Shown: in pieces, positions 16,712 through 44,305 of the stretch | Layout of the letters: the number at the start of each line of letters is the position of its first letter | Numbering within the stretch: the stretch's first letter is position 1 | NCBI RefSeq assembly: GCF_030012175.1 | Contig: NZ_JASCXW010000010.1 | Location: 1-56,777 of the forward strand | DNA length: 56,777 nucleotides | DNA from: Peloplasma aerotolerans | Lineage (GTDB): Bacteria; Bacillota_I; Bacilli_A; Acholeplasmatales; Acholeplasmataceae | Direction: 5' to 3' | The notes under the pieces: model-generated | What the model was told of the DNA's origin: nothing | The model's input: the letters and a program-made list of their open reading frames with translations, nothing else | Database searches by the model: none | Position numbers and translations under genes: made by a program

Positions 16712-16732
16712 AATTCATTAAGGGGTGATTCA

Positions 16733-19657
16733 ATGAAGAAAGGTATTATCTTTATATTGTTAACCATGTGTATTGGATTATACATACTTAAGTTAACACC
16801 ACCAGTTATGGCAAATAACCAAGACTGGGTTTTTGACTTGGGACAGTTTAGAGAAAATACATACTATCGCACACTGAATCGTTGGATAGAAACATATAAC
16901 AAATATGAAGATGAACCACTCACATTTAGTATTAACGATCAAGAAATATACAATAATCACCTAATGTTTGAAGATGGTATTGTTTCAGTTCAAAGATACG
17001 ATCAACTTGTTTATTATGTTCAAGCCCCCCACACAGGTCTTTATCAACTTGAATTAAGTTTCTATATTGATAACAACTTCTCTACTTCACCTACGGTTCA
17101 TATAAACATCAACGATGATATACCCTTTAATGAGATGTCGGGTTTTGCTTTAGATGTCAAATGGGAGATGGAAAGTAGAGAAGAACATGAAAGATATAAT
17201 AGATTTGGCAATGAACTACTTCCTCGTACAGTACCTGTAAAAGGATGGTATAGACAAACACTATCTGATACAAATGGAAGATTTAATGATAGCTTTTGGT
17301 TTCAATTTAATGAAGGAATAAACAAAATATCAATTGAACCAGTCAATCAGAATCTCAGTTTTGGAGATATGACACTGCATGGTGCAAAACCAATGGTGAG
17401 CTATCAAGATTATTTTGATATGGTCAGTCATCATGAACATGTGAGTTCAATATTGACATTAGAAGGGCAATCTTTTACTTCGAAAAATGATATTGAAATC
17501 AAAGCAGGCTATTTTAAAGGGCCAAACATGTCTCCAACATCTTATAAGATAAACATCTTGAATATTTTAGATGGGCAATCTATGGTACGTTCTGGAATGA
17601 CAGTAGATTACGAGTTTAATATTGAAACCAGTGGTCTTTATCGAATCAACTTTAAGTATTTACAAAGAGATATGGTTGGCATGAGTAGTGCAAGACGCAT
17701 ACGCATAAATGATGAAGTGCCATTTCAAGAACTAGATACGTATCTATTTCCATATGTTAAAAATTGGACAAATCATACTCTTGGTAGCGACGATGGTGAA
17801 TTCTGGTTTTATTTCGAATCGGGAGAGCATACAATTTCGCTAGAAGTAACAACAGCTCATCTCATAAACTATATTGACACATTGCACAATGTTATGGATC
17901 AGATTAATAGTTTAGGTTTAGCAGTTTCACAAATTACCGGTAATTCAACAGATGTATTAATTGACTGGGACATTTTAAGATACTTACCAACTATAAAAGA
18001 AGATTTGTTATCTTATGCGGATACACTTGATATGATTTATGATGAGATAAATCAAATTACACCATCAAGTTCAAGAGCAACTGGCGTTTCTACTTTACAA
18101 ATTGCGAGCAAGCAATTAAGACGTTTAGCTCAAAATCCCAATCGTATTCCTAATAAGATATCTGAACTTAATGTTGGAAGTGGATCAAGTTATCAATTAA
18201 TTGGTATCGCAATCAATCAAATGAATGTGCAACCCCTTCATATCGATCAAATACATTTATTTGGTAATGATATAGAATTAGACAAAGCACATCCTAATAT
18301 ATGGCAAAGAGTTATATTCTCAGTGCAATCATTTGTATATTCATTTTTTGATCAACGGTACCGTCTTACATCTAATCCTAACGATGACGTATTAGAAGTA
18401 TGGATCGGACAATCTAGTTTATATCTAGATATTATGCAAAATATGATAGATGATGGGTTTACAAAAGAAACTGGAATACCTGTTAGATTAAGTGTATTAC
18501 CTAATACACAACGCATCATTTTAAATAATGCAACAGGAACGAACCCTGATGTTGTTTTAAGCATAGATAGTTGGGAACCCTATGCGTATGCACTTCGAGG
18601 AATGTTAGCTGATTTAAGGCAATTTGATGGATTTGCTGAACTCGTTCAACCTTATCACCCAAACAATTTCACACCTATGATCTTTGAAGATGGTGTATAC
18701 GGAGTTCCAGAGACACAAGGAGTTTCTCTGATGTTCTACCGAAAAGATATCTTGAACTTTTTAGGCATTGAACCACCCGATACATGGGATGATGTTTTAG
18801 GTATTTTGCCAATCCTTCAAAGTTACCAAATGAATTTTTATCATCCACTTGGTGGCGAAGGTGCATATAAGGGATTTGGCTTAACAGCACCATTTATCTA
18901 TCAATTTGGCGGTGATATATATACAGAAAATGGTATGTCAACGACGTTTAATGAAGCTAAGAATATTGAAGCAATTACTTTTATGACAGACATATTTAAC
19001 ATTTATAATTTACCACAACAAGTCCCTAACTTTTTTGAGCATTTTAGATCGGGATCATTACCAATTGGTGTGGCATCTGTTGATCTATATCTTCAACTCA
19101 AGTATGCAGCACCAGAACTTGCAGGGCAATGGGGTGTTTTGCCAATCCCAGGAGTCTATGATGATACTTTAGGAGAAGTTGCAAGATGGGCACCTACTTA
19201 TGGTAAAGCAAGTATTCTATTCGAAAAATCTAATATGAAAGACGAAGGTTTTCAACTCATTCAGTGGTGGAATAAAGTAGAAACACAATTGACCTTACTA
19301 GAAACAGTAAAAATGGTTTTAGGTGAACGCTATTTGTTTTTACCTGCAAATCTTGATGCTTTGGAACAATCAATTTGGGACGACGAAGTCAAAGTACAAT
19401 CGTTATTACAAGCACAGTGGTCAAGAATCCCTGCAGTTACACCAGGTAGCTATATCGTTGAAAGAGAACTAACTAATATTTGGAACAAAATCGTAATCGA
19501 TCAAATGAATCCAAGAGTAGCTATCGATCAATCGATACCAAGAATTAATCGTGAGTTAATGAGAAAATACGAAGAATTTGGATATTATAAAGGAGGTGTG
19601 ACTGTTCGTGAATACATCGTTCCGAGAAACGACAACATCCAAAACTGGATCCCATAA
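16733..19657 (+). CDS. Large two-part solute-binding protein with N-terminal beta-sandwich modules
   Basis: 974 residues, roughly twice a normal binding protein. An N-terminal signal or anchor helix (residues 5-25) is followed by two similar beta-rich modules (about 40-215 and 235-400; compare HININDDIPFNEM and RIRINDEVPFQEL), a helical linker (about 400-540), and a family 1 solute-binding domain (about 548-900; VLEVWIGQSS, PDVVLSIDSWE). No clear lipobox: the Cys in LLTMCIG is in a poor context. The duplicated modules may bind polysaccharide so that the transporter sits on its substrate. The last 17 codons overlap the next gene, and its ribosome site (AGGAGGTG, 19591-19598) is read here as coding sequence. 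Confidence 0.82.
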   Translation: MKKGIIFILLTMCIGLYILKLTPPVMANNQDWVFDLGQFRENTYYRTLNRWIETYNKYEDEPLTFSINDQEIYNNHLMFEDGIVSVQRYDQLVYYVQAPHTGLYQLELSFYIDNNFSTSPTVHININDDIPFNEMSGFALDVKWEMESREEHERYNRFGNELLPRTVPVKGWYRQTLSDTNGRFNDSFWFQFNEGINKISIEPVNQNLSFGDMTLHGAKPMVSYQDYFDMVSHHEHVSSILTLEGQSFTSKNDIEIKAGYFKGPNMSPTSYKINILNILDGQSMVRSGMTVDYEFNIETSGLYRINFKYLQRDMVGMSSARRIRINDEVPFQELDTYLFPYVKNWTNHTLGSDDGEFWFYFESGEHTISLEVTTAHLINYIDTLHNVMDQINSLGLAVSQITGNSTDVLIDWDILRYLPTIKEDLLSYADTLDMIYDEINQITPSSSRATGVSTLQIASKQLRRLAQNPNRIPNKISELNVGSGSSYQLIGIAINQMNVQPLHIDQIHLFGNDIELDKAHPNIWQRVIFSVQSFVYSFFDQRYRLTSNPNDDVLEVWIGQSSLYLDIMQNMIDDGFTKETGIPVRLSVLPNTQRIILNNATGTNPDVVLSIDSWEPYAYALRGMLADLRQFDGFAELVQPYHPNNFTPMIFEDGVYGVPETQGVSLMFYRKDILNFLGIEPPDTWDDVLGILPILQSYQMNFYHPLGGEGAYKGFGLTAPFIYQFGGDIYTENGMSTTFNEAKNIEAITFMTDIFNIYNLPQQVPNFFEHFRSGSLPIGVASVDLYLQLKYAAPELAGQWGVLPIPGVYDDTLGEVARWAPTYGKASILFEKSNMKDEGFQLIQWWNKVETQLTLLETVKMVLGERYLFLPANLDALEQSIWDDEVKVQSLLQAQWSRIPAVTPGSYIVERELTNIWNKIVIDQMNPRVAIDQSIPRINRELMRKYEEFGYYKGGVTVREYIVPRNDNIQNWIP

Positions 19658-20540
19658 GAACAAGTTCAATACCTCATACTTATTCATTCTTCCTTATGCT
19701 ACATTTTTCATTCTTTTTGTTGTTGTATTAATCGTTATTGCAATACTATTATCATTTACATACTATGATACTGTCAATTTCCCATCTTTTGTAGGTATGA
19801 GAAACTATATTAATCTTTTTACCCAAGATACTGATTTTATGCAATTTGCTTTACCAACAACGATTCGTTACGCATTAATCATTGGTCCTGGTGGATATGC
19901 TTTATCATTTATGCTAGCTTGGATTTTAGCACAAATACCACATCGTGCAAGAACATTTAGTGCAATTATCATTTATTCACCAGCGTTGACAAGTGGTGTT
20001 CTAATGACTGTTGTTTGGCGTGTCTTGTTTTCAGGAGATAATAGAGGATATCTCAATAATATGCTCATAAACTATGGTGTAATCAATACGCCTGTTCAAT
20101 GGTTACAAGACCCGAGTGCAATTATGATCATCATGCTTTTTGTTGGATTATGGTCAAGCATGGGCATTGGATTTTTAGCAATGTTGTCTGGGATTCTAAA
20201 TATAAATAGAGAAATATATGAAGCAGCTTATATTGATGGATTAAAAAATAGGTGGCAAGAAATATTTTATATAACGATACCATCAATGAAACCTCAAATG
20301 TTGTTTGGTGCAGTCATGGCAATCGTATCAACTTTTAATGCTGCAGGTATAGCCACAGCATTGACGATGTCCTTCCCGCCTCCTCAGATGGCTGGCTGGT
20401 TAATTGTTGATCATATGAATGATTACGGATTCGCAAGATTTGAAATGGGTTATGCAAGCGCAGTTTCCGTAATGCTTTTATTGCTTGTACTATTTTTCAG
20501 TCGAGTCGCACACAAACTCTTTGGAGGTGAACGCGATTGA
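19608..20540 (+). CDS. Sugar ABC transporter permease (MalF/UgpA type)
   Basis: 310 residues with six predicted membrane helices. The binding-protein-dependent permease EAA loop reads EAAYIDGLKNRWQEIFYIT with the conserved Gly, where the shared ATPase docks. The start is GTG at 19608, 11 nt after AGGAGG, giving a 50-nt overlap with the large binding protein, so the pair is tightly coupled. It should heterodimerise with the product of the next gene. No ATPase gene is in the operon. Confidence 0.92.
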   Translation: MNTSFRETTTSKTGSHKNKFNTSYLFILPYATFFILFVVVLIVIAILLSFTYYDTVNFPSFVGMRNYINLFTQDTDFMQFALPTTIRYALIIGPGGYALSFMLAWILAQIPHRARTFSAIIIYSPALTSGVLMTVVWRVLFSGDNRGYLNNMLINYGVINTPVQWLQDPSAIMIIMLFVGLWSSMGIGFLAMLSGILNINREIYEAAYIDGLKNRWQEIFYITIPSMKPQMLFGAVMAIVSTFNAAGIATALTMSFPPPQMAGWLIVDHMNDYGFARFEMGYASAVSVMLLLLVLFFSRVAHKLFGGERD

Positions 20541-21424
20541 AAAAGCGTAAAAAGTCTAGTTACTTTGGTGCAATGATTAATCCTACAAATTTTCACCGAA
20601 GTCAAATAAAGTTTTATATGATTTTAATCCCCATATTACTTTTAATGGTATTACCAATTATTTTCATTATCTCGCATGCATTTAAACCTCTAGATGAGCT
20701 ATATGCTTATCCACCAAGATTTTTCGCTTCAAGAGTCACATTTGATAACTTTAGACAACTTATGAATGCTTCACAGCAATCTGGTATACCTTTTGGACGC
20801 TATTTGTTTAACAGTTTAATGTCAGCATCAATCGTCATTTTCTTGAGTTTATTACTTTCATCACTAGCAGCATTTGCATTCTCTTTCTTAGACTTTAAGG
20901 GAAAAAAATGGTTGTTTGCTGCTAACCAAGTTGCAATTATGTTTGTGGCAATCGCAGTTGCGGTTCCAAGATACATTGTCATGAATGTTTTAGGTGTTAC
21001 GAATTCATTTGCTGCACATATTGTTCCATTGATTGCGATGCCAGTTGGGGTATTCCTACTAAAGCAGTTTATGGATCAAATACCACGAGAACTGCATGAT
21101 GCAGCAAAAATTGATGGTGCTAATCGATTCCAAATATATCGAATGATTGTTTTACCACTCGTTAAACCTGCACTTGCAACGATTGCAATTTTAGCATTCC
21201 AAAGTGCTTGGAATAACGTTGAAACTTCACAGCTCTTCATTTCTGATGAAGCATTAAAAACATTGCCATACTATTTTAGTACATTAACATTAGGAACGAG
21301 CGGAATAGCTGCTCAAGGAATGGCTGCGGCAGCCTCCTTGATTATCTTCCTCCCTAATATCATCTTGTTTATTATCTTACAGAAAAATGTTATGAACACA
21401 ATGGCACATTCGGGGTTGAAATAA
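20537..21424 (+). CDS. Sugar ABC transporter permease (MalG/UgpE type)
   Basis: 295 residues, six helices, with the EAA-type loop DAAKIDGANRFQIYRMIVLP. The start codon is TTG at 20537, overlapping the previous stop (TTGA), with GGAGGTGA at 20523-20530 six bases upstream. Partner of the preceding permease. The next gene begins on its stop codon (TAATG). Confidence 0.92.
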   Translation: MKKRKKSSYFGAMINPTNFHRSQIKFYMILIPILLLMVLPIIFIISHAFKPLDELYAYPPRFFASRVTFDNFRQLMNASQQSGIPFGRYLFNSLMSASIVIFLSLLLSSLAAFAFSFLDFKGKKWLFAANQVAIMFVAIAVAVPRYIVMNVLGVTNSFAAHIVPLIAMPVGVFLLKQFMDQIPRELHDAAKIDGANRFQIYRMIVLPLVKPALATIAILAFQSAWNNVETSQLFISDEALKTLPYYFSTLTLGTSGIAAQGMAAAASLIIFLPNIILFIILQKNVMNTMAHSGLK

Positions 21425-23499
21425 TGAAGAAGATATTAATAACACTACTCATTATAATCTTGTTGCTATTTGCTTTGCCGCAATTTTCAATACTAGCTCA
21501 AGCACCTTATATTACACAATCGCCAAATAGATATGGTGAGTTTGTCGTTACACAAGATGCATACGAACCAATACAAGATATACGTTCATTTGAAAATCAG
21601 TTAACATTCTCTAACCCAAGGGATATATTTGTTGATCATCTCGATTATTTATATGTTTTAGATTCAGGAAATAGAAGAGTTGTAATATTTGACGAAAATC
21701 ACTTATATTTAACTCACTTTGGTGCTGATTTGCTAGTACGTCCAACTGGTATTTTCGTTAGAAACAACAAAATATATATTGCCGATTATGGTACTCCAGA
21801 AGATGTTACAAGCGGACGAATACATATATATCTTTTTAATCGAGAACTCAATCAGGTCAATCTTTTAGATTCTTTCCAAAGACCTGCAAGCCCTGTTCTC
21901 GAGATTAACCAATTCATTTATCGGCCACAAAAAATTGCCGTCGATTATAATGAAACAATGTATGTAGTATCAGAAGGCTCATATAATGGTATATTAATGA
22001 TTAACTCTGAAAACAGATTTTTAAGTTTCTTTGCACCTAATAGAGTTCAAGGAACTTTATTGGATCGAGTTATTCAAGTCCTTTACGGAAACAATGAAAG
22101 AGCACAACTCACAAAAAAAATACCACCAGCACCATCCAATGTTTTTCTAGATGATTCTGGTTACGTTTTTACAGTTACTCAAACTACAATTACTGGCTCA
22201 AGAGGAGATACATTAAAAAAGGTTAACAATGGTGGATTAAACTTTTTCCCCGACAACATGTTTACTGCTAGTGATTTCACATCAATTGCTGTCGGTCAAG
22301 TAGATAATGTATATGCTATTACTCGATCTGGTTTCATATACGAATACGACCGAGAAGGAAACTTGATGTTTGTCTTTGCGGGTAGTAGCCAAGGGCAAGA
22401 TCGTATTGGTCTATTTCAAAATGCATCTGCGATAGCGGTTAATAGTCAAAATTATATTATCGTGGCTGACGAAGTAAGCAATAATATTCATATATTTAAG
22501 CCTACAGCGTTTGCAAATGTTGTCCATGAAGCACTAGGGTTATACAATCAGGGAAAATATGTAGAAAGTCAATCCTTATGGGAAGAAGTTCTTAGATATA
22601 ATGCATTGTTTGACTTAGCCCACGAAGGCATTGGCTTATCATATTTGATGCAAGGTCAATATAAAGAAGCTCTAAACAAGTTTGAAATAGCAAATGCTCA
22701 AGAGGAATACTCTCTAGCTTATTGGGAAGTCAGAAACGATTGGTTGATGAGTAATGCTGGCTTCTATATGGTAGGCATCATTATTTTGTATTTAGGATTA
22801 GTTGTTATTAAAAAGGTTGACACAAATGATGTTGTGTTTAAACCGACTAAAAAATTGATAAATCATATGGGCAAATATAGATTTGTCCAAGAAATATCTT
22901 TTATGACTCATTTTATTAAAAATCCAGCAGATGCAGTTTATGAGGTTAAAACACATAAAAGAGTCTCGTTTTATTCAGGTCTAATCTATGCACTTGGCTT
23001 AGTCGTTTTATACATTCTACATTTACTATTTACTGGATTTTTATTTACCCCAATTATCCTAGAGAGAGCGGACTTTCTTGAGGAGTTATTGAAAATATTA
23101 GCACCATTTATAACATTTGTTTTTGCAAATTATCTTATATCTTCTCTTATGGAAGGAGAAGGAACATTTAAAGCGATTTTCATTAACACGTGTGGCGCTC
23201 TAATTCCAGTCTACTTGATACTACCTATTTTAATCATATTATCTAATGTCTTAACCTATAATGAGCAATTTATTTACCAATTTGGTTTGACAATTATGAT
23301 AGGTTGGTCAGCTGTTCTTGTTTTCTTTATCATTAAAGATACACATAATTACACAATTAAGGAAACCATCTACAATTTAATTATGACTATACTGATGATG
23401 GTTGTGATGATTATTCTTGTCATTATGGTCTATATGATGATGATGCAAGTTGTTGAGTTTGTTGCTGATTTATTTAAGGAGGTAATTATCAATGCGTAA
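21424..23499 (+). CDS. NHL-repeat/TPR/Yip1-like membrane protein
   Basis: 691 residues with an unusual architecture. A signal peptide (residues 1-26) is followed by an NHL-type beta-propeller (about 55-360; repeats such as NPRDIFVDHLDYLYVLDSGNRRV, shortened here to DYLYVLDSGNRRV, and QNYIIVADEVSNNIHIF), a TPR-like pair of helices (about 365-440; EALGLYNQGKYVES and LMQGQYKEALNKF), one membrane helix (about 446-465) and a C-terminal membrane domain with about five helices resembling Yip1 (about 510-690). The propeller would face outside. It lies between the two permease pairs next to a DUF5696 gene; I recall this pairing from other Bacillota sugar transporter loci. Function is not established. 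It may be a transporter accessory or assembly factor. Confidence 0.75.
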   Translation: MKKILITLLIIILLLFALPQFSILAQAPYITQSPNRYGEFVVTQDAYEPIQDIRSFENQLTFSNPRDIFVDHLDYLYVLDSGNRRVVIFDENHLYLTHFGADLLVRPTGIFVRNNKIYIADYGTPEDVTSGRIHIYLFNRELNQVNLLDSFQRPASPVLEINQFIYRPQKIAVDYNETMYVVSEGSYNGILMINSENRFLSFFAPNRVQGTLLDRVIQVLYGNNERAQLTKKIPPAPSNVFLDDSGYVFTVTQTTITGSRGDTLKKVNNGGLNFFPDNMFTASDFTSIAVGQVDNVYAITRSGFIYEYDREGNLMFVFAGSSQGQDRIGLFQNASAIAVNSQNYIIVADEVSNNIHIFKPTAFANVVHEALGLYNQGKYVESQSLWEEVLRYNALFDLAHEGIGLSYLMQGQYKEALNKFEIANAQEEYSLAYWEVRNDWLMSNAGFYMVGIIILYLGLVVIKKVDTNDVVFKPTKKLINHMGKYRFVQEISFMTHFIKNPADAVYEVKTHKRVSFYSGLIYALGLVVLYILHLLFTGFLFTPIILERADFLEELLKILAPFITFVFANYLISSLMEGEGTFKAIFINTCGALIPVYLILPILIILSNVLTYNEQFIYQFGLTIMIGWSAVLVFFIIKDTHNYTIKETIYNLIMTILMMVVMIILVIMVYMMMMQVVEFVADLFKEVIINA

Positions 23500-25777
23500 A
23501 TTTAAAGTATTAATCGTGATGCTAATTATCTCTATGATGATTGGACTTGTTACAGTATATTCAATAGGGCAAAAACGTACAAGTACATTTGAAGTCTATA
23601 CATCTAGTTTCGAAGGCAATTCAAGATCCTTAGGTGTTGTTGAAGATACAAGGCAAGTTTATGAAAACTACGATGAGCAAGACTTAATTGATCGGAATTT
23701 TGAGTTGATTTCAAGTACCGAAGAAATCTCAATGTACCTTAATCGGCAAATATTTAATATAGCAATTGTTGATCACTCAACCAATTATGTATGGTATGGA
23801 TATTATCCAGAATATAAAAATAAAGGTTATACGAATAGTGTCAATCAATTGATCGAATCAGGAGTTACTGTAGCTTATTACGACGCTTCTACGCTTAATG
23901 AAGCTAGAATGTCAATTAGTAATCCTGATTCCGGAACTGTCATCACTTATGAAAACATTTCTAATGGAATTAGGGCAAACCTTGATATTGTTAGAATCGG
24001 TATTTCATTTGCCGTAGAGGTTAGTATTTCAGCGGACCAATTGAATGTAAAAATACCTCATGATAGCATTGTCGAAGTTCCTTATCAAACTGCAGCTATG
24101 CGTTTTCCTCGAGAATATAAACTACATTCTGTTTATGTATTCCCTTATTTTGGTTCACAAAATTATGAAATAAATGGTTATGCATTTGTTCCGGATGGAT
24201 CTGGAGCATTGATTAGATATACAGATACACCGTACAATTCAGCATACATCAGAAGAATATATGGGAGAGATTTAGGGTTTCAATCAGCTGTAACTACATT
24301 AGCACATTTAAAAACTGAAGCACCGATTACCTTACCAATTTTTGGTATTAATCACGGATATCAACAATCAGCGTTTATAGCTGAAGTTAAAAGTGGTTAT
24401 GGAGCTGTTGAACTCCATAGTTATCCATATCGATATAATAATGTTGATATTAATACGACATTCTTTGTGTATAGAACTCGAGATCGATCAATTATTCGCT
24501 TATCAGGTGGTGATACATCGACAATTCCGCTCATCAATAAAGATCCATATCCCTTTGATTTTGAGATGTTATATTCATTTTTAAGTCAAGAGCAAGCCAG
24601 TTATTCTGGTATGGCAAATCGATATAGAGAAAACTTAAATCTTGATTATATTGAAGAGAATCAATCTATATCTGTACATCTTGAAGTTATAGGAATTGAT
24701 GATAAACCGTCGTTGCTTGGGAAGTCAAATGTGAAGTTAACAACTTATTCAGAATTAGCTTACATAGTTGAGGATTTAGGTATGTTGGGACAAAATGATT
24801 TATTAATCTCATATCGAAGCTGGAATCAAGGTGGTTTCTTTGGATCAAAACCTAATAAGTTCAATCCATCATCTCAACTAGGTGGAAAAAAACAGTTTAA
24901 TCATTTAATGAGCGTTTTGAATAGTAAAGAGGACGTTGAATTATCGTTATATCATGATCCATTGGTTGCTCCATCACAAAAAGCATTCCAAACAGTACTA
25001 AGAAGAACAACATTGGATATGTTTTATGCTCCAATTGATAGTTCAAGAATTGAACGAGGATATTATCGATCAATTGAAGGTTTATCGAACAGATTACTAA
25101 CAAATGAGAAAAAATATCAAAGTCATTTAATAACAAATTTATCCATAGAGTCTGTTGGACACTTGCAGTTCTCATATCAGTTAGGCAGAAAAACAACATA
25201 TCGTGAGCAAATGATTGATGAGATTATGGCAGAATTAGAAAAATTAACAGATTATCAAATTGGATTATATCAACCTGCAGATTATACATTTAATTATATA
25301 AGTCGATATTATGATATGTTTCATCAGTCGAATTTGTATAGTTTCATGACTGATTCAATTCCCTTTGTGAGCATGGTTTTGAGTGGGCATGTTGAACTCT
25401 ATACGTCACATTTGAACTATGTCAATGATTTAGAAATGATGAAGTTACGGATGATTGAGTATGGCTTAAGTCCATCTTTCATGATTACGTATGAGGAAAG
25501 TTATAAACTACGATATACGAATTATGAATATCTTTATACAACACAATATGAGTTGTGGAAAGATAAGATAATTGACACAAGTCATTATGTAGGTTCTATA
25601 TTAAATCATGTTGTTGGCGAAAATATAATAAACCATCGATTCATCGATGAGAAAGTTGTAGAAATTACTTATAGTAATGGTGTCACAATATATGTTAATT
25701 ATTCAGACCAGATAGTTTTAATCAACGATCTTACGATTGAACCACTGAGTGCAACTTATACGGAGGTGGGTTCATGA
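23492..25777 (+). CDS. DUF5696 family exported protein
   Basis: 761 residues. An N-terminal hydrophobic signal or anchor (KVLIVMLIISMMIGLVTVY) precedes a large extracytoplasmic part. The first third is beta-rich (FAFVPDGSGALIRY, a pattern common in this family) and the second part looks like a TIM-barrel-like fold (DLLISYRSWNQGGFFGSKPN). I recognise it as DUF5696, a family that accompanies sugar ABC transporters; no enzymatic activity is known to me. It overlaps the previous gene by 8 nt and the next by 4 nt (ATGA), so it is made together with the transporter. A glycosidase-like role on the outer face is possible but not shown. Confidence 0.75.
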   Translation: MRKFKVLIVMLIISMMIGLVTVYSIGQKRTSTFEVYTSSFEGNSRSLGVVEDTRQVYENYDEQDLIDRNFELISSTEEISMYLNRQIFNIAIVDHSTNYVWYGYYPEYKNKGYTNSVNQLIESGVTVAYYDASTLNEARMSISNPDSGTVITYENISNGIRANLDIVRIGISFAVEVSISADQLNVKIPHDSIVEVPYQTAAMRFPREYKLHSVYVFPYFGSQNYEINGYAFVPDGSGALIRYTDTPYNSAYIRRIYGRDLGFQSAVTTLAHLKTEAPITLPIFGINHGYQQSAFIAEVKSGYGAVELHSYPYRYNNVDINTTFFVYRTRDRSIIRLSGGDTSTIPLINKDPYPFDFEMLYSFLSQEQASYSGMANRYRENLNLDYIEENQSISVHLEVIGIDDKPSLLGKSNVKLTTYSELAYIVEDLGMLGQNDLLISYRSWNQGGFFGSKPNKFNPSSQLGGKKQFNHLMSVLNSKEDVELSLYHDPLVAPSQKAFQTVLRRTTLDMFYAPIDSSRIERGYYRSIEGLSNRLLTNEKKYQSHLITNLSIESVGHLQFSYQLGRKTTYREQMIDEIMAELEKLTDYQIGLYQPADYTFNYISRYYDMFHQSNLYSFMTDSIPFVSMVLSGHVELYTSHLNYVNDLEMMKLRMIEYGLSPSFMITYEESYKLRYTNYEYLYTTQYELWKDKIIDTSHYVGSILNHVVGENIINHRFIDEKVVEITYSNGVTIYVNYSDQIVLINDLTIEPLSATYTEVGS

Positions 25778-26796
25778 GTCATATAAAAGTATGGTTTAAG
25801 ACTATATATAAAAAAATAAGTTTAGTATATAAAGTTAAAATTAAACCAGTTATAAACAAATCTATGTTGTTTTTAGCTAAATATCTAGGATTAAACTGGC
25901 TACTAAAGAAGTATCAATCACTAAAACATGCGACAAGAAATGCAATAACAGGTATATTGTTCATCTCACCATGGTTATTAGGCTTATATCTTTTTGGACT
26001 TCGTCCATTTGCTTCTTCACTGAGAATGAGTTTTGCTGATTCAGCACTTTATGTCATCAATAGTGAAACACAAACTGTAGATTTTATTGTAAGAGGATGG
26101 ACCATTAGACATTTCACCTCCTTGATTCAAAATCAACCGGAGCATGTTGGAACAGTCATTAACGTTTTTCTCGATATAGCATTAATCGTTCCATTGGTCA
26201 TGATATTCGCTTTATTGCTGGCATTGATGTTGAATCAACCATTAAAAGGTAAAGGTATTTTTAGAGTCATATTCTTCATACCAGTTATTTTGTTAAGTGG
26301 AAATATGCTGTCTTATTTTAATCAGTATAACCTTCTATCTGTACCAGCGATTCAAAGTGGAGCAATTGCTCAAGGCATTAATGCATATCTTCCAAGGCAA
26401 TTTTCAATACTTATAACTGGTGTATTTGAAAGAATTGTTTTAATTTTATGGCTCAGTGGTGTTCAAATGTTAATCTTCTTAGCAGGCTTGCAGAAAAACG
26501 ATCGAGCAATCTATGAAGCAGCAGCCATAGATGGGGCATCTGTTTGGGATAGTTTCTGGAAAATAACATTACCTGGACTTCACAGCTTGATGATTATTAA
26601 TATCATTTATACGACAGTCATTTATGCTAATCTTTCCAACAATGCCTTGATTGGATTAATCAATCAAACCTTAGTTGATGTTAGATTTGGTAGAGCATAT
26701 TCATCAGCACTATCTTGGGTTTTATTCGTGATTCAACTTTTAATCATTGGTATATACACATTGATGATTAAACTGTCGAATCGACGATATGAATAG
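25774..26796 (+). CDS. Sugar ABC transporter permease (MalF type), second pair
   Basis: 340 residues: a basic N-terminal tail of about 60 residues, then six membrane helices. The EAA loop is EAAAIDGASVWDSFWKITLP. ATGA overlap with the DUF5696 gene. It is longer than the other MalF-type permease at 19608 and not a recent copy of it. It should pair with the product of 26810-27739. Confidence 0.91.
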   Translation: MSHIKVWFKTIYKKISLVYKVKIKPVINKSMLFLAKYLGLNWLLKKYQSLKHATRNAITGILFISPWLLGLYLFGLRPFASSLRMSFADSALYVINSETQTVDFIVRGWTIRHFTSLIQNQPEHVGTVINVFLDIALIVPLVMIFALLLALMLNQPLKGKGIFRVIFFIPVILLSGNMLSYFNQYNLLSVPAIQSGAIAQGINAYLPRQFSILITGVFERIVLILWLSGVQMLIFLAGLQKNDRAIYEAAAIDGASVWDSFWKITLPGLHSLMIINIIYTTVIYANLSNNALIGLINQTLVDVRFGRAYSSALSWVLFVIQLLIIGIYTLMIKLSNRRYE

Positions 26797-26809
26797 GAGG
26801 TGATTAACA

Positions 26810-27739
26810 TTGAATCAAATTAAATGGAAAAAACGCCTCTTTGGAATGTATGGAAATGATGGTTTGCTAAACAAAATTATTTTATATATTCTCTTTATAG
26901 GTATTGGATTTATCTTTCTCTATCCATTAATGCAAATGCTTGTCACTAGCTTTATGCCGTTAATTGATTTGGTAGATCCAACGACAATATGGATACCGAA
27001 AAACTTCACTTTTAGAAACTATATTCGAGCCATTGAAGCACTCAATGCTTCAAAAGCCTTAATAGATTCAATAGTTGTATCTATATTACCTACAATATTT
27101 ATTGTAATAAGTTCTGCGATGATTGGATATGGGTTTGCTTCTTACGATTTCCCATTAAAAAAATTGATGATGTCTATATTGTTAATGATTTTCTTGATAC
27201 CAACAATTTTAATGGCAATTCCAACTTATGTCATTTATCGTGAACTTCAAATACTTGACTCGCTCAAAGCATTTATATATCCTGCGATGACTGGATTTGG
27301 ATTTAGACAAACCATATTCATTCTTATCTTCTACCAATTCTTCAAAATGATTCCAAAAGAGTTGAAAGAAGCAGCAGAGGTTGACGGAGCTAGTGCAGTT
27401 AAAGTATTTATACAAATTGCAATACCACTTGCATTACCAGCTTTTCTTATTACATCATTGTATGCTTTTGTATGGTATTGGAATGAAACAAGCCTAGCAC
27501 TGCTATATTTTCCAAACAAATATAGTACATTACCAATGGCAGTTATAGGGTTTAGAACACTTTATGAGAATTTGTATCCTTCGGGAACCATAGGTTTAGA
27601 AGGTGCAAGTGAGACATTCAATCAAGGTGTTCAATTTGCAGGGACAATACTTTCGATTTTACCTTTATTAATTGTATACTTTATTGCCCAGAAATGGTTT
27701 ATTGAAGGTGTTGATCGCTCAGGTATTGCAGGAAATTAA
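26810..27739 (+). CDS. Sugar ABC transporter permease (MalG type), second pair
   Basis: 309 residues, six helices, EAA loop EAAEVDGASAVKVFIQIAIP. The start is TTG at 26810 behind a full AGGAGGTGATT ribosome site. It completes the second permease pair of the operon; the giant CBM lipoprotein follows after 39 nt. Confidence 0.91.
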   Translation: MNQIKWKKRLFGMYGNDGLLNKIILYILFIGIGFIFLYPLMQMLVTSFMPLIDLVDPTTIWIPKNFTFRNYIRAIEALNASKALIDSIVVSILPTIFIVISSAMIGYGFASYDFPLKKLMMSILLMIFLIPTILMAIPTYVIYRELQILDSLKAFIYPAMTGFGFRQTIFILIFYQFFKMIPKELKEAAEVDGASAVKVFIQIAIPLALPAFLITSLYAFVWYWNETSLALLYFPNKYSTLPMAVIGFRTLYENLYPSGTIGLEGASETFNQGVQFAGTILSILPLLIVYFIAQKWFIEGVDRSGIAGN

Positions 27740-27778
27740 GAAATGAAAATAAAAAAGAATTACGAAAGGGAGAAAAAA

Positions 27779-30700
27779 ATGAAACAAAAATTTAAGTTGT
27801 TATTAATCATCTTTGCTTTGTTACTTGTTGTTGTAGCGTGTAAACCAGAAGATCCTACACCATCAGATCCTACACCTACAGATAATGTGCCTGTTATCTC
27901 TGGTGCTGTTGATAAAACGATTGAAAGAGGTTCAACATTTGTTCCTCTTCAAGGAATCACAGCATCCGACGTTGAAGATGGAGATTTAACAGGAGATATC
28001 GTTTATTCGGGTAATGTGAATCCAAATGTTGTTGGTGTTTATCAAGCAACTTACACAGTTACTGATTCAGATGGAAATACAACGTCAGTCACAATAACTG
28101 TTACAGTTGTTTTGGTTGATACTGAAGAACCACTGATTTCTGGTGCTGGAGACATTACTATTTTCGTTGGAGACATGTCATTCAATGTTATGAACGGTGT
28201 GACAGCTGAAGATACAGTTGATGGTACATTAACTGATGAAGTTGAGTATACTGGAGTTGTCGATGTCTGGACACCAGGTGAATATAACATCACATATACA
28301 GTATCTGATGCTGCTGGGAATCAAGCATCTAGAGTTCGTAAAGTAACGGTAAGTCTTGGTTACTTCGCATTTTCTGATGATAATGCACTTATGAATGGTG
28401 AGTTTACTGTTGACGATAGTGAGTGGGATATTGTAGGTGCAACAAGTTCAGTAACAGATGGAATTCTTAGTCTAGATATAACATCTGCAGCAACATTATC
28501 ACAGTCTGATTTATCAGGTGGTGTCATTAATCTTGATGTTGCTAACTTTACTTTAGTTAAACTAGTATTAACCGCAAAAGCTAATGCTAATCGTGATATT
28601 CATGCATCTATTGAACAAGCATCAACTACTGCAGATCCAATATCATTAACAACAACTATGGCAGAATATGTACAATACTTTAGAATGACTGAACCGTTAG
28701 ATCTTGCAACGTTTGAGTTAGATTTAGGAAGTGCTACTGGTGTTGTTGATATTCAATCAATCGAGTTATTCTTTGGTATTCCATCAGATGATGAAGCACC
28801 TGTTTTAAATGTTCCTCAAACAGATGTATTTGCTCCAATTGACAATATGAGTGCATTAAGATCACTTGTATTAAGAGGAGTAACTGCTATTGATAATATT
28901 GATGGCAATATAACTTCTAAATTGACACTAGATCTTGATGGTATTGATATTACAGTACCTGGAACTGTTGAGATTCCAATAGTTGCAAGAGATAATGCAG
29001 GCAACGAAACAGTTGTCGAAAGAACAGTTCACCTAAATATTCCTTTTGATACAAATGTAATTAAAGACCCAACATTTGATGATGAATTAGATAGCACGCA
29101 ATGGGGATTATCTGGCGGTGGTGAACAAGTTACTATGTACACTTCAAATGGTTCACTTATTGTTGATGTTGTTAGTCCAGGTGGATGGGATTCTGCAACC
29201 AGTCCATATTTGAGAAATGTAACAACAAATCAATTATTACCAGAAAATTACTACATGTTCCAATTTGATGTTAAAGCTGAAAAAGCTCGTCAAATGAGAA
29301 TTCGTTCAGGGTTAGAGTTATGGTCAGATCCTTGGATTGAAGATTTCCAAGATGGCGCAGTGAAAAACTTACAATACCAAATAACAACAGAATGGACAAC
29401 GATTTATTATGTTTTCTATATTGATCAAGCATTGTCAGCAGCGGGATCAAATGTTGTTAAGTTTGAAATCAAACTTGGAACGATAACTTGGGGATCAGAA
29501 GAATCAAATAATAAGATTTCTATAGATAATGCACAATTCTATTTATTGACGATGGAAGATGATGATCCTGTAATCAGTCCTGTTGCAGATAAACAATTGA
29601 CTTTTGCTGTTGGAGATACTGCACCAGATTGGACTGAATATGTAACAATTTTTGACACAGAAGATGGAAGTATTCCAGTTACTGCAGCAATGGTCGATGA
29701 TTCAGATGTCGATATGGATGCTGTAGGAACATATGATGTTGTGTTTACAGTAACAGATTCAGGTGGTAATACGGTTAGCTATACAATTCAAATCAATGTA
29801 TTAGCTGAAGCAGATGTTACACCACCGGTCTTAACTATTAATGATGCACTAGAAACTACTTTTGATCAGTTTGCTGATATAACAGTTGACTTAAAGGCTT
29901 ATATAACTGCAGTTGATGATATCGATGGTGAAATCATAATTACTTCAGCAATGATTGAAAATGATGGATTTAATATCAATATTGCTGGTACTTATCAAGT
30001 TGTTTACACAGTTCAAGATTCTTCTGGAAATATAGCAACTGAAACAATTGAATTTACGGTTGTTGATAAGGAAGGACCAGTCATAAGTGGAGCAGCAGAT
30101 AAAACTATTACTATTGGTGAGATGTTTAATCCTCTAGATGGTGTAACTGTTACTGATAATGTTGATGGAGCAATTGTTCTAGAATTATCAAATGTAGCTG
30201 GTTATGAATTATTTGTTGATGAGTCGTTTGTTGCTAACGCAGTTGGTGAGTTTGAGGTTACATACCTAGTTGCTGATGCATTAGGGAATGAAACAGAATT
30301 AGTGATAACCATTACAGTATTACAAATTGAGTTTGATGAAACACTTGAAACTGACTTATTAGCACTTCAAATACCAGTTCAAAATGACGGTGGAACGATT
30401 GAGTCTGTCGGTGTATACAATCCAGACGGATCATTGACAGTTACATATAATGGTGTTAAAGGCTGGTATGGTTCATACTCTAAGATTACCTACTCAGGTG
30501 TTACTTTACTTGAAGATCGTATGTACAAACTAGTTATTGAAGCAGAAGCAGAATCAGCAAGAGATGTATTGGTTCGATTTGTTGGTGAAAATGGGACTGC
30601 TGTTCAAGCATTCACGGGTCGTTTAGTAGTACCAATTGGTGAAACTTCAGCAATTTATGAGTTGATTTTCTCACTAGACCAAACAGGACCATATAATGTT

Positions 30701-32335
30701 CAACTGCAATTTGGATGGGAAGGCAATTTAAACAATGCAAGCGATGCTAATGTAATGACATTTACACAGTTTAAATTAGTACCAGAAAAAGTTATCGAGT
30801 ATGATATGGACAATGCAGCAGATCTACTAGCTCTCGAAAATGCAGTTGGCAATGATGGTGGTAATATTGAATCAGTTGGAGAATATAACGTTGATGGATC
30901 ATTAACCGTTACTTATAATGGTGTTCAAGGATGGTATGCATCATATTCTAAGATTACATACTATCAATCATTGACAGAAGGATTACATTACAAACTGATT
31001 CTAGAAGGGAAAGCAGAAACAGCTCGTGATATGCTCATACGTTTCGTTGATGGTTCAGGGGTTGCAGTTCCAGAGTTTGATGGAAGACTTGTTGTAAGTT
31101 TGGGAACTGATTTCAATCTATTAGAAGTTACATTTGTAGCTCCTTCAACGGATACCTATAACATTCAGTTACAATTTGGTTGGGAAGGCTTTTTAACAAA
31201 TGCATCAGATGCAAACGTGATGACATTCACTCAATTCTTGTTAGTTCCAGAAAAAACGGATGTTGTTCCTATTGAATCTTATTATATGCTAGATGATTTT
31301 GAAGGATATGCAGATCAAGCAGCTTTAGAATTGGTCTACACACATAGAGTACCTAATGCTGGTGCAAACCATAATGATGAGCATGTTTTATTAAGTCCAA
31401 CTTCTGGAGCTTATGGAACACAAGGTGTTGCATTTACATATGGAGCTCATTCTGTTACCGGATGGGACTTATTAAGAACAAAGAGCAACATTGATAATAC
31501 GGGCTTAACAAATGACCATTTGTACTTCGCATTTTGGTTTAAAGGCGATGGAGTTGTTACCAATATATATGTATGGCTATATTGGAGTGGAAGTCAAAAC
31601 TCGAAACTAGTTAATGTATCAGATGTTCCTGCAGAAGGTGGATATGTTTATATTGCACTTTCAGAATGGGGAAAAACGGCAACTGATATCACACAATATG
31701 CATTTGGATATGATAACCCTTCGACTACAGGAACTGTTTATATAGATCAAATCATGTTTATTACAGGGCCTGGTGCGTTTGAACTACTTGAACCTATATC
31801 AGAACCAGAAGCACTAGTGTTTGTTATTGATGATTTTGAAGGTTATGCAGATCAAACAGCGATGAATGCAATCTATACTCATCGTGTACCAAGTGCAGGT
31901 GCAAACCATGATGATGAACATATACTTCTAGGTGATTTCGGTTCAGAAGGATCAAAAGGTGTTAAGTTTACAGCAGGGGATCATGGGGTAACTGGTTGGG
32001 ATATATTCAGAACTGAAAATGGTTTTGACAATACCGGTTTAACTGATGATTATGAGTATTTTGCATTTTGGTTTAAAGGCGATGGTATTGTAACGTCGAT
32101 TTATGTTTGGTTATATTGGTCAGGTAGCCAAGACTCAAAAACAATAGATGTATCTGGAGTTCCTGTTGATGGAGGATATGTATACATTGCTTTATCAAAC
32201 TGGAGCAAAACAGCTACTCAAATTACAAATTTTGGTGTCGCATTTAATTATGCTACAGTTCCAGCATCACCTACAGTTGTTTACATAGATGATTTTATGT
32301 TTATTGAAAATCCAAGTGTATTTGACGTAGAATAA
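27779..32335 (+). CDS. Giant non-catalytic lipoprotein with Ig-like and carbohydrate-binding-like modules
   Basis: 1518 residues; start ATG 27779 with AAAGGGAG at 27765-27772 (in-frame ATG 27743 is less likely). Lipobox VVAC puts lipidated Cys at residue 21. The rest is modular: two DUF5011/HYR-like Ig domains (about 37-112, 115-192), a CBM4/9-like jelly-roll (about 195-335), one Ig domain (about 338-420), a second CBM4/9-like module (about 424-594), three Ig domains (about 596-850), a tandem pair of similar modules (about 850-1005 and 1006-1160; shared SLTVTYNGVKGWYGSYSKIT-like and QLQFGWEG blocks), and a second tandem pair (about 1168-1335 and 1346-1518; shared DDFEGYADQ, WFKGDG and YVWLYWSGSQ blocks). 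I see no catalytic module and no wall anchor. It probably holds mannan at the cell surface for the GH5-like lipoprotein and binding proteins. The specificity of each module is unknown. Confidence 0.82.
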   Translation: MKQKFKLLLIIFALLLVVVACKPEDPTPSDPTPTDNVPVISGAVDKTIERGSTFVPLQGITASDVEDGDLTGDIVYSGNVNPNVVGVYQATYTVTDSDGNTTSVTITVTVVLVDTEEPLISGAGDITIFVGDMSFNVMNGVTAEDTVDGTLTDEVEYTGVVDVWTPGEYNITYTVSDAAGNQASRVRKVTVSLGYFAFSDDNALMNGEFTVDDSEWDIVGATSSVTDGILSLDITSAATLSQSDLSGGVINLDVANFTLVKLVLTAKANANRDIHASIEQASTTADPISLTTTMAEYVQYFRMTEPLDLATFELDLGSATGVVDIQSIELFFGIPSDDEAPVLNVPQTDVFAPIDNMSALRSLVLRGVTAIDNIDGNITSKLTLDLDGIDITVPGTVEIPIVARDNAGNETVVERTVHLNIPFDTNVIKDPTFDDELDSTQWGLSGGGEQVTMYTSNGSLIVDVVSPGGWDSATSPYLRNVTTNQLLPENYYMFQFDVKAEKARQMRIRSGLELWSDPWIEDFQDGAVKNLQYQITTEWTTIYYVFYIDQALSAAGSNVVKFEIKLGTITWGSEESNNKISIDNAQFYLLTMEDDDPVISPVADKQLTFAVGDTAPDWTEYVTIFDTEDGSIPVTAAMVDDSDVDMDAVGTYDVVFTVTDSGGNTVSYTIQINVLAEADVTPPVLTINDALETTFDQFADITVDLKAYITAVDDIDGEIIITSAMIENDGFNINIAGTYQVVYTVQDSSGNIATETIEFTVVDKEGPVISGAADKTITIGEMFNPLDGVTVTDNVDGAIVLELSNVAGYELFVDESFVANAVGEFEVTYLVADALGNETELVITITVLQIEFDETLETDLLALQIPVQNDGGTIESVGVYNPDGSLTVTYNGVKGWYGSYSKITYSGVTLLEDRMYKLVIEAEAESARDVLVRFVGENGTAVQAFTGRLVVPIGETSAIYELIFSLDQTGPYNVQLQFGWEGNLNNASDANVMTFTQFKLVPEKVIEYDMDNAADLLALENAVGNDGGNIESVGEYNVDGSLTVTYNGVQGWYASYSKITYYQSLTEGLHYKLILEGKAETARDMLIRFVDGSGVAVPEFDGRLVVSLGTDFNLLEVTFVAPSTDTYNIQLQFGWEGFLTNASDANVMTFTQFLLVPEKTDVVPIESYYMLDDFEGYADQAALELVYTHRVPNAGANHNDEHVLLSPTSGAYGTQGVAFTYGAHSVTGWDLLRTKSNIDNTGLTNDHLYFAFWFKGDGVVTNIYVWLYWSGSQNSKLVNVSDVPAEGGYVYIALSEWGKTATDITQYAFGYDNPSTTGTVYIDQIMFITGPGAFELLEPISEPEALVFVIDDFEGYADQTAMNAIYTHRVPSAGANHDDEHILLGDFGSEGSKGVKFTAGDHGVTGWDIFRTENGFDNTGLTDDYEYFAFWFKGDGIVTSIYVWLYWSGSQDSKTIDVSGVPVDGGYVYIALSNWSKTATQITNFGVAFNYATVPASPTVVYIDDFMFIENPSVFDVE

Positions 32336-32359: not shown

Positions 32360-32398
32360 ACATTCCTAATTGGGCATTCCATTAGGAATGTTTTTTTT
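32360..32398 (+). terminator. Strong intrinsic terminator of the mannan operon
   Basis: Perfect 11-bp inverted repeat ACATTCCTAAT (32360-32370) / ATTAGGAATGT (32381-32391), 10-nt loop, followed by eight T. It is the first good terminator after the promoter at 2997. Confidence 0.92.
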
Positions 32399-40921: not shown

Positions 40922-43900
40922 ATGAGTGCATACAGTGTTAAAAGACCGATAACAGTTTTAATGGGAATCCTAATCATTATCGTATTAGGTATTTTTTCAG
41001 TATCAAGATTACCATTAACATTGTTCCCTGATATTAACTTACCATTTGTCGTAACGATTACGCCATATGAAGGAGCAACCCCAGAAGAGGTTGAGTTTGA
41101 AGTTTCAAGAAGGATTGAGTCAACGGTTGCTACGATTGGGAATTTTCAAGAAGTACAATCCATGTCGAACGAACACTTCGGGATTTCAATTGTGACGTTT
41201 GCTGAATCATCCAATATGGATAGTGTTGTTATTGAGTTAAGGGAATTATTAAACAACATTAGTTTTGCTGATGGTGTGGGTAACACAAGAATTTTAAGAA
41301 TTAGTCCTGATATGCTTCCTGTCATGACGGTTACATTATTTAGAACATACGATGATGAGTTAACCGATGATGAAGCTTTAATTAGAAATACAGAGTGGAT
41401 TAATAGAGAAGTTCTTTTAGATCTAATGAGTATCCCAGGTGTTGCCGATGTTAATGTATCTGGAGCTGCAGATATTGTGCTTCAAGTAAACTTAGACCAA
41501 AACATCCTTGACAGTTATAGCATAACGCATGATGAAGTATTATCAATTATTGAAGATCAAAACGTTGGAGGTCTTATAGGAGTAGCACTTGATTCGGGAG
41601 AATTAAGAATGCTTTATTTAGGTGATCGTCCTAGTTTATTATCAGATATAGAATCATTACCTATTTTAAATGATAGTGGTAATATCGTTTATTTGAGCGA
41701 TTTAACAGTTGAAAATGGTATTCGCTATATTAATGCAAATACAGAGACGTACTCGAAAATCAACGGTATACAAGGCATTCAAGTATCATTTCAAAAACAA
41801 TCAGATTATGGAATTACTGAGGTCACAGAAAATATAATAAATCGTTTAAATTTAATCATAAATGAAGATGATGGAGATGCACATTATACAATCCTTTTGG
41901 ACCAAGGTGAGTACATCAATCAAGCTGTTGGATCAGTTTTACAAAATATTATTATCGGTGGTGTATTAGCCATCATCGTCTTATTTGTGTTTTTAAGAAA
42001 TGTTAAACCAACATTAATTGTAGGTTTAGCAATTCCTATCTCTGTGATTGCTGCATTTATGTTAATGTATTTTACGAATGTAACATTAAACCTTGTCTCC
42101 ATGGGAGGTTTAGCATTAGGCATTGGGATGCTTGTCGACAATGCAGTTGTTGTTATTGAAAATATATATCGAATGATCGGTGAAGGTAAGACAAGATCTG
42201 AAGCTGCCATTCAAGGATCAAAACAAGTAGCAGGAGCGATCACTGCTTCAACTTTTACAACGATTGCTGTGTTCCTTCCAATTGCATTTATTGAAGGTAT
42301 GGTTGCTGATGTCTTTATGAGTATGGCGTTAACGATTGCGTATTCTTTAGGTGCAAGTTTGATTATTGCATTAACACTTGTTCCAAGTATGGCATCGAGA
42401 ATGCTTGATGACCAAAAAGTACAAAAAGAAGGAAAAACAATTTTAGGGTTAAAGAAATGGTATAAGTCATCGGTTTTGTTTACAATTAAACATAAAGCAT
42501 TAACACTGCTTACAGTTATTGTTCTATTAGCAGGTTCTTTGTTTTTAGTTATATCAAAAGGATTTATTATGTTGCCGACTTCCGATGAAGGAACAATCAA
42601 TGTTTCAATATCAACAACAAGTCAAACAACATTTGTAGCAAAAGCAAATTATGCCGACTATGTTACGAATCAATTGATGCAAATTGATGATATTGAAACT
42701 GTGTCAACAACAATTGGTGGTAGTGGAGGTTTTGGATTTATGAGTATGATGGGTGGTGGGTCAAACACATCAATCAATTTTACAATCAATCTTGTTGATA
42801 ACAGAACTAGAACCACACAATTTTATGATACATATATTGAAGCTTTAATTCAGAATGTCGATTTAGATGAGATTGAAGGTATGAATCAAGATCAAATTCT
42901 TGAAATTAATGTTTCTGCTCAAAATAGCACAGGTGCATTAGGTGGGACTCAAGGTATTCGAATCAAGGTAAGTGGATATAATTTAGAGACTCTAGAAATA
43001 ATTGCTAACGATCTTACTGATATCTTAAATGATATTGAACATGTGATTAAAGCAGATAATGGTGTTATTCAAGGACAAAATAATGTAAAAATTACTGTTG
43101 ATCGTGATCAAGCTATGACATATGGTTTAACCAGCCAAGATGTTATGAATAATGTTGGATACTTATATACCAATCTTGAAGGATTAGGGCAAACCCAATC
43201 ATTAACGGTAACTATTGAAGGTATAGAGTATACATTGGATTTACCTGTTGAAACATTTGGTGGTGGAATATCATTTGATTTGTTTGGTGATTATTTAACC
43301 TTCTTGGGTGAGATTAAGCTTTTTGATTCAGCAACACAAGCCATGATAAATACATATATAGAAAATACCGGACAAGGTATATATGTACCTAACATCATGT
43401 TACCAACATATACAGAAGGTGACCCAATTCAGTTTGTTGTAAATCCTTATTTAAAAGTGACTGGAACCAATACAATTGAAATGAATCCAATGAGTGCAGA
43501 TCCTACTTTAACATCATTAAGTGTTGCACCATTATATGATGCGAATTCTGAAAACAATGTCACTTCTATAGATTTAATAACTGGATTTGCAACAATTAAC
43601 ACTGATGGGTCGAACCGTTATTTAAATGTCTCTGCACAAGTAGCAGAAGGACAAAATGTGACAATTGTTAGTCAAGAAGTAACACGAAGAGTAAATGAAT
43701 ATTTAAGTAGTTCAAACTTCACACAACATGGTTTAGGCTACCATGTATCATTTGCAGGTGAAAATGAAGAAATTTTGGATGCTGTATCAGAGTTAGCATT
43801 AGCAGCTCTTGTAGCAATCTTATTAGTCTATATGGTCATGGCAATTCAATTTCAATCTCTACTATATCCATTAATTATTTTAGGAACAATTCCTCTAGCC

Positions 43901-44305
43901 TTCACAGGTGGTATGATGGCACTGTTAATAACAAACTCATATTTAAGTTTAATTTCTATTATGGGTCTAATCATATTGATTGGTATTGTTGTTAATAATG
44001 GTATTGTATTAATTGATTATATTAATAAGTTAAGAGAACAAGGTAAAACAGTTATGGATGCTATTGTTGAAGCAGGACAAACAAGATTAAGACCAATCTT
44101 TATGACGGCATTAACAACGATATTAGCCTTAACGACGATGGCAATCGGATTCGGTGAAGGTTCTGAGTTGTTACAACCTATGGCAATCACAGCAATCGGT
44201 GGACTGATTTATGCTACTGTATTAACATTAGTTGTAGTACCAACGATTTATGCATTATTCAACTATAGAAGAATCAAAGCGGAGGCAAAAGATGCAAACA
44301 ACTAA
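40922..44305 (+). CDS. RND family efflux transporter
   Basis: 1127 residues with the RND layout: one helix, a large outer loop, six helices, a second large loop and five helices. Motifs include the N-terminal KRPITVLMGILIIIVLGIFS, TPEEVEFEVSRRIE, and LVDNAVVVIENI in the fourth-helix region with the proton-relay Asp. It resembles AcrB/MdtB and the Gram-positive SwrC/YerP exporters of lipophilic or peptide compounds. Cells without an outer membrane use such pumps alone; no adaptor or outer-membrane channel gene is here. Followed, with a 14-nt overlap, by a TetR regulator. The substrate is unknown. Confidence 0.93.
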   Translation: MSAYSVKRPITVLMGILIIIVLGIFSVSRLPLTLFPDINLPFVVTITPYEGATPEEVEFEVSRRIESTVATIGNFQEVQSMSNEHFGISIVTFAESSNMDSVVIELRELLNNISFADGVGNTRILRISPDMLPVMTVTLFRTYDDELTDDEALIRNTEWINREVLLDLMSIPGVADVNVSGAADIVLQVNLDQNILDSYSITHDEVLSIIEDQNVGGLIGVALDSGELRMLYLGDRPSLLSDIESLPILNDSGNIVYLSDLTVENGIRYINANTETYSKINGIQGIQVSFQKQSDYGITEVTENIINRLNLIINEDDGDAHYTILLDQGEYINQAVGSVLQNIIIGGVLAIIVLFVFLRNVKPTLIVGLAIPISVIAAFMLMYFTNVTLNLVSMGGLALGIGMLVDNAVVVIENIYRMIGEGKTRSEAAIQGSKQVAGAITASTFTTIAVFLPIAFIEGMVADVFMSMALTIAYSLGASLIIALTLVPSMASRMLDDQKVQKEGKTILGLKKWYKSSVLFTIKHKALTLLTVIVLLAGSLFLVISKGFIMLPTSDEGTINVSISTTSQTTFVAKANYADYVTNQLMQIDDIETVSTTIGGSGGFGFMSMMGGGSNTSINFTINLVDNRTRTTQFYDTYIEALIQNVDLDEIEGMNQDQILEINVSAQNSTGALGGTQGIRIKVSGYNLETLEIIANDLTDILNDIEHVIKADNGVIQGQNNVKITVDRDQAMTYGLTSQDVMNNVGYLYTNLEGLGQTQSLTVTIEGIEYTLDLPVETFGGGISFDLFGDYLTFLGEIKLFDSATQAMINTYIENTGQGIYVPNIMLPTYTEGDPIQFVVNPYLKVTGTNTIEMNPMSADPTLTSLSVAPLYDANSENNVTSIDLITGFATINTDGSNRYLNVSAQVAEGQNVTIVSQEVTRRVNEYLSSSNFTQHGLGYHVSFAGENEEILDAVSELALAALVAILLVYMVMAIQFQSLLYPLIILGTIPLAFTGGMMALLITNSYLSLISIMGLIILIGIVVNNGIVLIDYINKLREQGKTVMDAIVEAGQTRLRPIFMTALTTILALTTMAIGFGEGSELLQPMAITAIGGLIYATVLTLVVVPTIYALFNYRRIKAEAKDANN

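Follow-up and report, generated by a model that had tools for sequence, protein, structure and literature searches.

A predicted surface glycan-binding lipoprotein at the end of a mannan operon in Peloplasma aerotolerans

SusE and SusF of the Bacteroidota are non-catalytic surface lipoproteins in which immunoglobulin (Ig)-type domains are combined with binding modules, and they are encoded in a glycan-uptake operon together with SusC and SusD. Here we describe a 1518-residue protein of comparable build, encoded on a 56,777-nucleotide stretch of DNA from Peloplasma aerotolerans (contig NZ_JASCXW010000010.1, the whole of which is called the window below). It is probably a surface glycan-binding lipoprotein belonging to a beta-mannan uptake operon of a wall-less bacterium, the binding itself being predicted. 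Separate binding proteins are known from the mannan polysaccharide utilisation locus of Bacteroides ovatus, which has two of them at the cell surface, while in the mannan loci of Roseburia intestinalis carbohydrate-binding modules (CBMs) of families 27 and 23 sit on the glycoside hydrolase (GH) family 26 mannanase itself (PMC6385246). Sas20 of Ruminococcus bromii, a starch-binding part of the amylosome with two binding domains (PMC9112005), is likewise a non-catalytic glycan-binding protein of the cell surface outside the Bacteroidota, although its architecture is unlike that of the window protein.

As with SusE/SusF and the B. ovatus binders, the window protein is a non-catalytic lipoprotein with Ig and binding-type modules, kept apart from the mannanase; its surface location and its binding are predicted. 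In contrast to SusE/SusF, it has twelve domains, with CBM4-type and CBM11-like modules, its host appears to be single-membraned and wall-less with no outer-membrane susC/susD neighbourhood, and an ABC importer accompanied by DUF5696 and YIP1-like proteins stands in place of SusC and SusD. The protein is therefore best read as one that would work like SusE/SusF without being a member of that group. The original prediction had called it a different solution to the SusE/SusF task in the Bacillota; a non-catalytic Ig/binding lipoprotein with unrelated import machinery fits this in part, with glycan binding as a prediction, and the walled Bacillota host has to be given up. The Roseburia loci share with the window the GH130, epimerase, carbohydrate esterase family 2 (CE2), solute-binding protein (SBP) and two permeases for beta-mannan (PMC6385246), whereas the binding modules of the window are on a separate lipoprotein and not on the mannanase. 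Overall, the system appears to resemble the B. ovatus plan of separate binders more than the Roseburia plan, with unrelated import machinery.

Domain order and identity of the modules

The open reading frame (ORF) translates into 1518 residues without an internal stop. An alternative in-frame ATG lies 12 codons upstream, at 27743, and the start at 27779 is favoured because both the ribosome site AAAGGGAG and the signal peptide suit it. The signal sequence reads MKQKFKLLLIIFALLLVVVAC; residue 21 is the lipobox cysteine. Because of this lipobox, the ribosome-binding site and the presence of Lgt genes, the product is predicted to be a lipoprotein, in line with the earlier claim. The Lgt genes number three in one 2-Mb genome, on contigs C12, C4 and C6 of the same assembly.

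Self-comparison and alignments give the order after the signal peptide as Ig1, Ig2, A, Ig3, B, Ig4, Ig5, Ig6, C1, C2, D1 and D2. PF16403 (bacterial surface Ig-like, formerly DUF5011) matches six stretches with E 2.3e-50 and 168.9 bits against a curated cut-off of 27, scores that put these matches far beyond chance. The non-Ig remainder forms six modules of about 140-175 residues each, among which C1 and C2 are about 62-63% identical and D1 and D2 about 60%. No catalytic family was detected in the protein by Pfam, NCBIfam or PDB sequence searches. A protein made only of Ig-like and binding-type modules, six of each, had indeed been expected, and the coordinates given for its two tandem pairs (30330-31260 and 31279-32332) were correct; the strict alternation of the two kinds does not hold. 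We rejected a broken enzyme on the ground that nearly every stretch past the signal peptide is assigned to an Ig or a jelly-roll module, and a further solute-binding protein for want of an SBP domain.

Module B scores just below the cut-off of PF02018 (CBM4/9; Table 1), which three of its five orthologues match. A profile of the C family, including two more typical copies from genome G046 (where the contig, 3.5 kb long, gives no context), retrieves the laminarinase 16A CBM4 (1gui), the same family aligns with module B in hhalign, and PF02018 is matched singly by 8 of 15 relatives of the C modules, window C1 by itself not being among the matches. On account of these three results we assign C1/C2, by profile, to divergent CBM4/9 and not to a new fold or superfamily. 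For module A, the PDB profile search gave no match and hhalign with B reached only 22%. Its model, however, superposes on the CBM4 1gu3 over 119 residues at 2.5 A, and CBM4 rows head its list of structures, with CBM16 and CBM29 within about 1 Z, so that a CBM4-like fold is predicted. Thus B and C are like CBM4/9 by profile and A by predicted fold, although the window copies are divergent, B falling just under the Pfam threshold and C1 going undetected alone.

The D modules are of another kind. Neither single copies nor a nine-member family profile gave a sequence match in Pfam or PDB (chance hits only in Pfam), the hhalign comparison with B was empty (4%), and searching the PDB with profiles built from A, B or D returned nothing useful. 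The predicted structure superposes on the CBM11 6r31 over 143 residues at 2.8 A with 20% identity, and the Foldseek top 50 include CBM families 8, 11, 16, 22, 27, 28, 29, 30 and 61. D is thus predicted to share the jelly-roll fold of CBM11 from Clostridium thermocellum Lic26A-Cel5E, though with no significant sequence match to it. Both tandem pairs had been put forward as possible new CBM families. Among all the modules only D could be one: the pair at 31279-32332 is still a candidate, having no sequence relative, and the pair at 30330-31260 is not. Of the families proposed for comparison, CBM4/9 suits A, B and C, and the CBM whose fold comes closest to D is CBM11; CBM27 and CBM35, as well as CBM29, rank under CBM4 for A and under CBM11 for D, a ranking and not an exclusion.

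The operon, its host and its relatives

The claim that the lipoprotein closes a mannan operon is borne out. It comes last, behind a transporter set of eight genes that encode two SBPs, four permeases, a YIP1-like protein and a DUF5696 protein, and on the same strand upstream of that set are two CE2-type esterases, a GH2 mannosidase-like protein, a LacI regulator, a 2-epimerase, three GH130 enzymes and a mannanase-like lipoprotein. The SusC and SusD families are absent from all upstream genes scanned back to 1039, ABC permeases being there instead, and none of the scanned genes was recognised as encoding an ABC ATPase. The DUF5696 protein has one N-terminal membrane segment. A literature search of open-access papers found none that names DUF5696, and none on non-catalytic CBM lipoproteins with ABC transporters.

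The genome is a metagenome-assembled genome (MAG) of 2.04 Mb, 99.58% complete, of the Acholeplasmataceae type within the Mycoplasmatota. A search of it for the penicillin-binding transpeptidase family PF00905, the one wall-gene family covered, found nothing, whereas 10 of 14 control genomes gave a hit. These data fit a wall-less bacterium, in place of the walled Bacillota host first assumed, and the lineage of the relatives points the same way. In such a host the lipid anchor would place the protein directly on the outer cell face. Two strict peptide patterns for C-D, searched across the genome contigs, found four loci, all in Acholeplasmataceae or Acholeplasma MAGs, which is not a measure of true spread. 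The window also encodes a 1127-aa transporter of the AcrB/ACR_tran family (40922-44305), though the genome seems single-membraned.

Annotation of 39 loci surrounding DUF5696 genes in the phylum showed that complete loci nearly always have the order permease-permease-YIP1-DUF5696-permease-permease. Across the Mycoplasmatota, the DUF5696 and YIP1/NHL/TPR proteins (window 21424-25777; loci L106-L144) belong, together with four permeases and two SBPs, to a set that is strongly conserved. The slot after the last permease is often taken by a surface lipoprotein, which is a GH16 enzyme (L107, L119, L137), a PF10091 enzyme (L106, L116) or an Ig/CBM protein; the last is found there in the window and in genomes G006, G091, G425, G315, G331, G289, G296 and G253, and one gene further from the last permease in G105. 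These ten loci, from the window and nine other genomes, make up seven families. Eight genomes have the complete core Ig-Ig-A-Ig-B-Ig-Ig-Ig, the ORF of G105 as called beginning near the end of Ig2 and G253 being more divergent with no A detected. Behind the core the tail varies: C-C-D-D in the window, C-C-D in G006, C-D in G091, C-C in G289 and in G315 (there cut by the contig end), C plus two D-like modules in G331, and C-C-C-D-D-Ig-D in G425. A copy in G031 (L054, L062) was not counted as an orthologue, being a truncated remnant of C-D only without a signal peptide; it lies near GH130 and phosphomannomutase genes. Matches to module B in G461 and G238 were set aside as located in other kinds of protein.

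In each of the ten loci a GH130 gene lies no further than about 15 kb from the lipoprotein, on its contig and strand; none of the 15 other DUF5696 clusters of the same genomes, all of which lack the core, has one at such a distance. The Fisher p is 3e-7, or 3e-4 when each family contributes a single cluster (a 7-versus-7 table), values to be taken as guides since the genomes are related, scoring covered only the three best DUF5696 candidates of each genome, and a number of the contigs are short. A paralogous cluster on contig C11 of the same assembly has the same transporter set with a GH94 gene, a GH16 lipoprotein and an 834-aa lipoprotein of its own with three CBM4/9 and one Ig domain (L055:9259-11763), to which several relatives have similar proteins. 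Separate binding lipoproteins therefore look like a habit of the lineage.

Predicted role and alternatives

In the model we favour, the lipidated N-terminal cysteine would anchor the protein in the single membrane, and the six Ig domains would serve as spacers that hold the six binding modules, four of CBM4 type and two CBM11-like, away from the cell. These modules may keep beta-mannan chains close to the GH5-like mannanase lipoprotein of the surface (12310-14211), the oligosaccharides it releases would be handed to the operon's own SBPs and permeases, and after import they would be broken down inside by the GH130 phosphorylases, the epimerase and the GH2 mannosidase. Architecture and fold suggest the spacing and the holding of mannan, and gene order suggests the hand-over. 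A surface glycan-binding role is favoured because of the profile likeness of B and C to CBM4/9, the CBM4- and CBM11-like folds of A and D and the lack of a catalytic module; because of the place at the operon end, the relatives in nine other genomes and the link with GH130; and because the paralogous C11 cluster has its own CBM4/9-Ig lipoprotein. Several points weigh against it. Module A is poorly conserved, at 26-40% outside the genus, and the ten genomes, being related, are not independent trials. The fold of D is equally near to two non-CBM jelly rolls, 7zkq (CIA30-type, complex I assembly intermediate) and 5z06 (a beta-1,2-glucanase), and because these tie with CBM11 the fold alone is no proof of sugar binding. 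The GH130 at 14208 is nearer to beta-1,2-mannan enzymes, the closest being a 1,2-beta-oligomannan phosphorylase (E 1.2e-63), and glycan binding and contact with the importer are themselves predictions.

This GH130, together with structural matches that are mainly binders of other beta-glycans, would suit a ligand other than beta-1,4-mannan, such as beta-1,2-mannan or a mixed glucan. However, the GH130 at 11286 matches beta-1,4-mannooligosaccharide phosphorylases (E 1.8e-111), the surface lipoprotein at 12310-14211 matches GH5 mannanases, and the set of GH130, epimerase and CE2 resembles the Roseburia beta-mannan loci (PMC6385246); we consider a different ligand unlikely. It is similarly doubtful that the protein serves the transporter as a scaffold or docking element, in which the core would contact the SBPs or the ectodomains of the DUF5696 and YIP1-like proteins and leave glycan binding to the variable tail. 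The constant core order in eight genomes and the changing number and kind of tail modules are what such a part might show, yet module B, within the core, is probably a CBM4/9 module, and most DUF5696 clusters lack the core, which the transporter as such therefore does not need. Long Ig-rich surface proteins are commonly adhesins, and PF16403 and HYR domains are found in such proteins, so the modules might mainly attach entire cells to plant fibre or to the glycans of other cells without directly helping uptake. The fixed place at the operon end after the transporter and the specific link with GH130 speak against a mainly adhesive protein, which strikes us as quite improbable, although both roles could coexist.

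We thus retain the surface glycan-binding lipoprotein. We offer a bolder version of it only tentatively, as having a rather low chance of being right: the core would be an arm of an undescribed complex that captures and imports mannan, to which the YIP1-like and DUF5696 proteins, the four permeases and the two SBPs would also belong; this complex would be the counterpart of SusCD-SusE/F in a single-membrane cell, and D would found a mannan-binding CBM family. Mycoplasmatota are usually regarded as minimal parasites; the Ig/CBM lipoprotein offers a handle on their DUF5696 transporter set, and D is a candidate CBM family.

Feature coordinates and minor observations

Table 1. Features of the operon and of the lipoprotein gene, in positions of the window (pLDDT, predicted local distance difference test).
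Feature	Position	Strand	Basis
Three GH130 genes	10154-11326, 11286-12332, 14208-15218	+	family searches
GH5-mannanase-like lipoprotein, 633 aa	12310-14211	+	DUF5060 structure 9gmj E 1e-62; GH5 mannanases E 1e-5
Two solute-binding proteins: 490-aa lipoprotein (SBP1), 974 aa (SBP2)	15239-19657	+	PF01547 in C-terminal half of SBP2
Permease, permease, YIP1/NHL/TPR protein, DUF5696 protein, permease, permease	19608-27739	+	
Ribosome-binding site (GAAAGGGAG)	27764-27772	+	sequence; 6-7 bases ahead of ATG 27779
Whole lipoprotein gene	27779-32335	+	1518 aa
Lipoprotein signal peptide to lipobox Cys21	27779-27841	+	sequence VVVAC; three Lgt genes in genome
Ig1 and Ig2 (PF16403)	27881-28357	+	Pfam; PDB matches are chitinase 60 Ig domains, E 1.2e-20
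Module A, CBM4-like predicted fold	28358-28786	+	model pLDDT 84.7; CBM4 1gu3 Z 12.4
Ig3	28787-29041	+	Pfam, self-comparison
Module B, probable CBM4/9	29042-29560	+	PF02018 E 7.1e-5, 23.6 bits vs cut-off 25.9
Ig4, Ig5, Ig6	29561-30325	+	Pfam, self-comparison
Module C1, divergent CBM4/9 by profile	30326-30793	+	family profile to CBM4 1gui E 7.5e-5; hhalign with B 97.4%
Module C2, divergent CBM4/9 by profile	30794-31267	+	63% identity to C1
Module D1, CBM11-like jelly roll (predicted), no sequence family	31271-31786	+	model pLDDT 86.1; CBM11 6r31 Z 14.1
Module D2	31808-32332	+	60% identity to D1
Terminator-like hairpin closing the operon	32372-32393	+	one found; 2.3 expected by chance in region; sits where expected

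SBP1 has no Pfam match and owes its label to sequence and place. In SBP2 (16733-19657) PF01547 spans residues 567-848 only, and the N-terminal half is without a family. Among the relatives, the DUF5696 gene of G006 appears as two ORFs in the MAG (L050:1200-3400), and in G105 the last permease and the Ig/CBM lipoprotein are separated by an inserted DUF4886 lipoprotein (L051:8141-9685). The Ig/CBM gene of G105 itself seems split over contigs C60 and C26 (end of L051 and L060:8746-10116), the C26 part consisting of a C module followed by a Flg_new repeat. Finally, contig C31 of the same assembly as the window encodes a 1363-aa protein (L056:3014-7105) in which five stretches match Ig domains, another five match CBM4/9, and none matches an enzyme family; a GDPD gene adjoins it.

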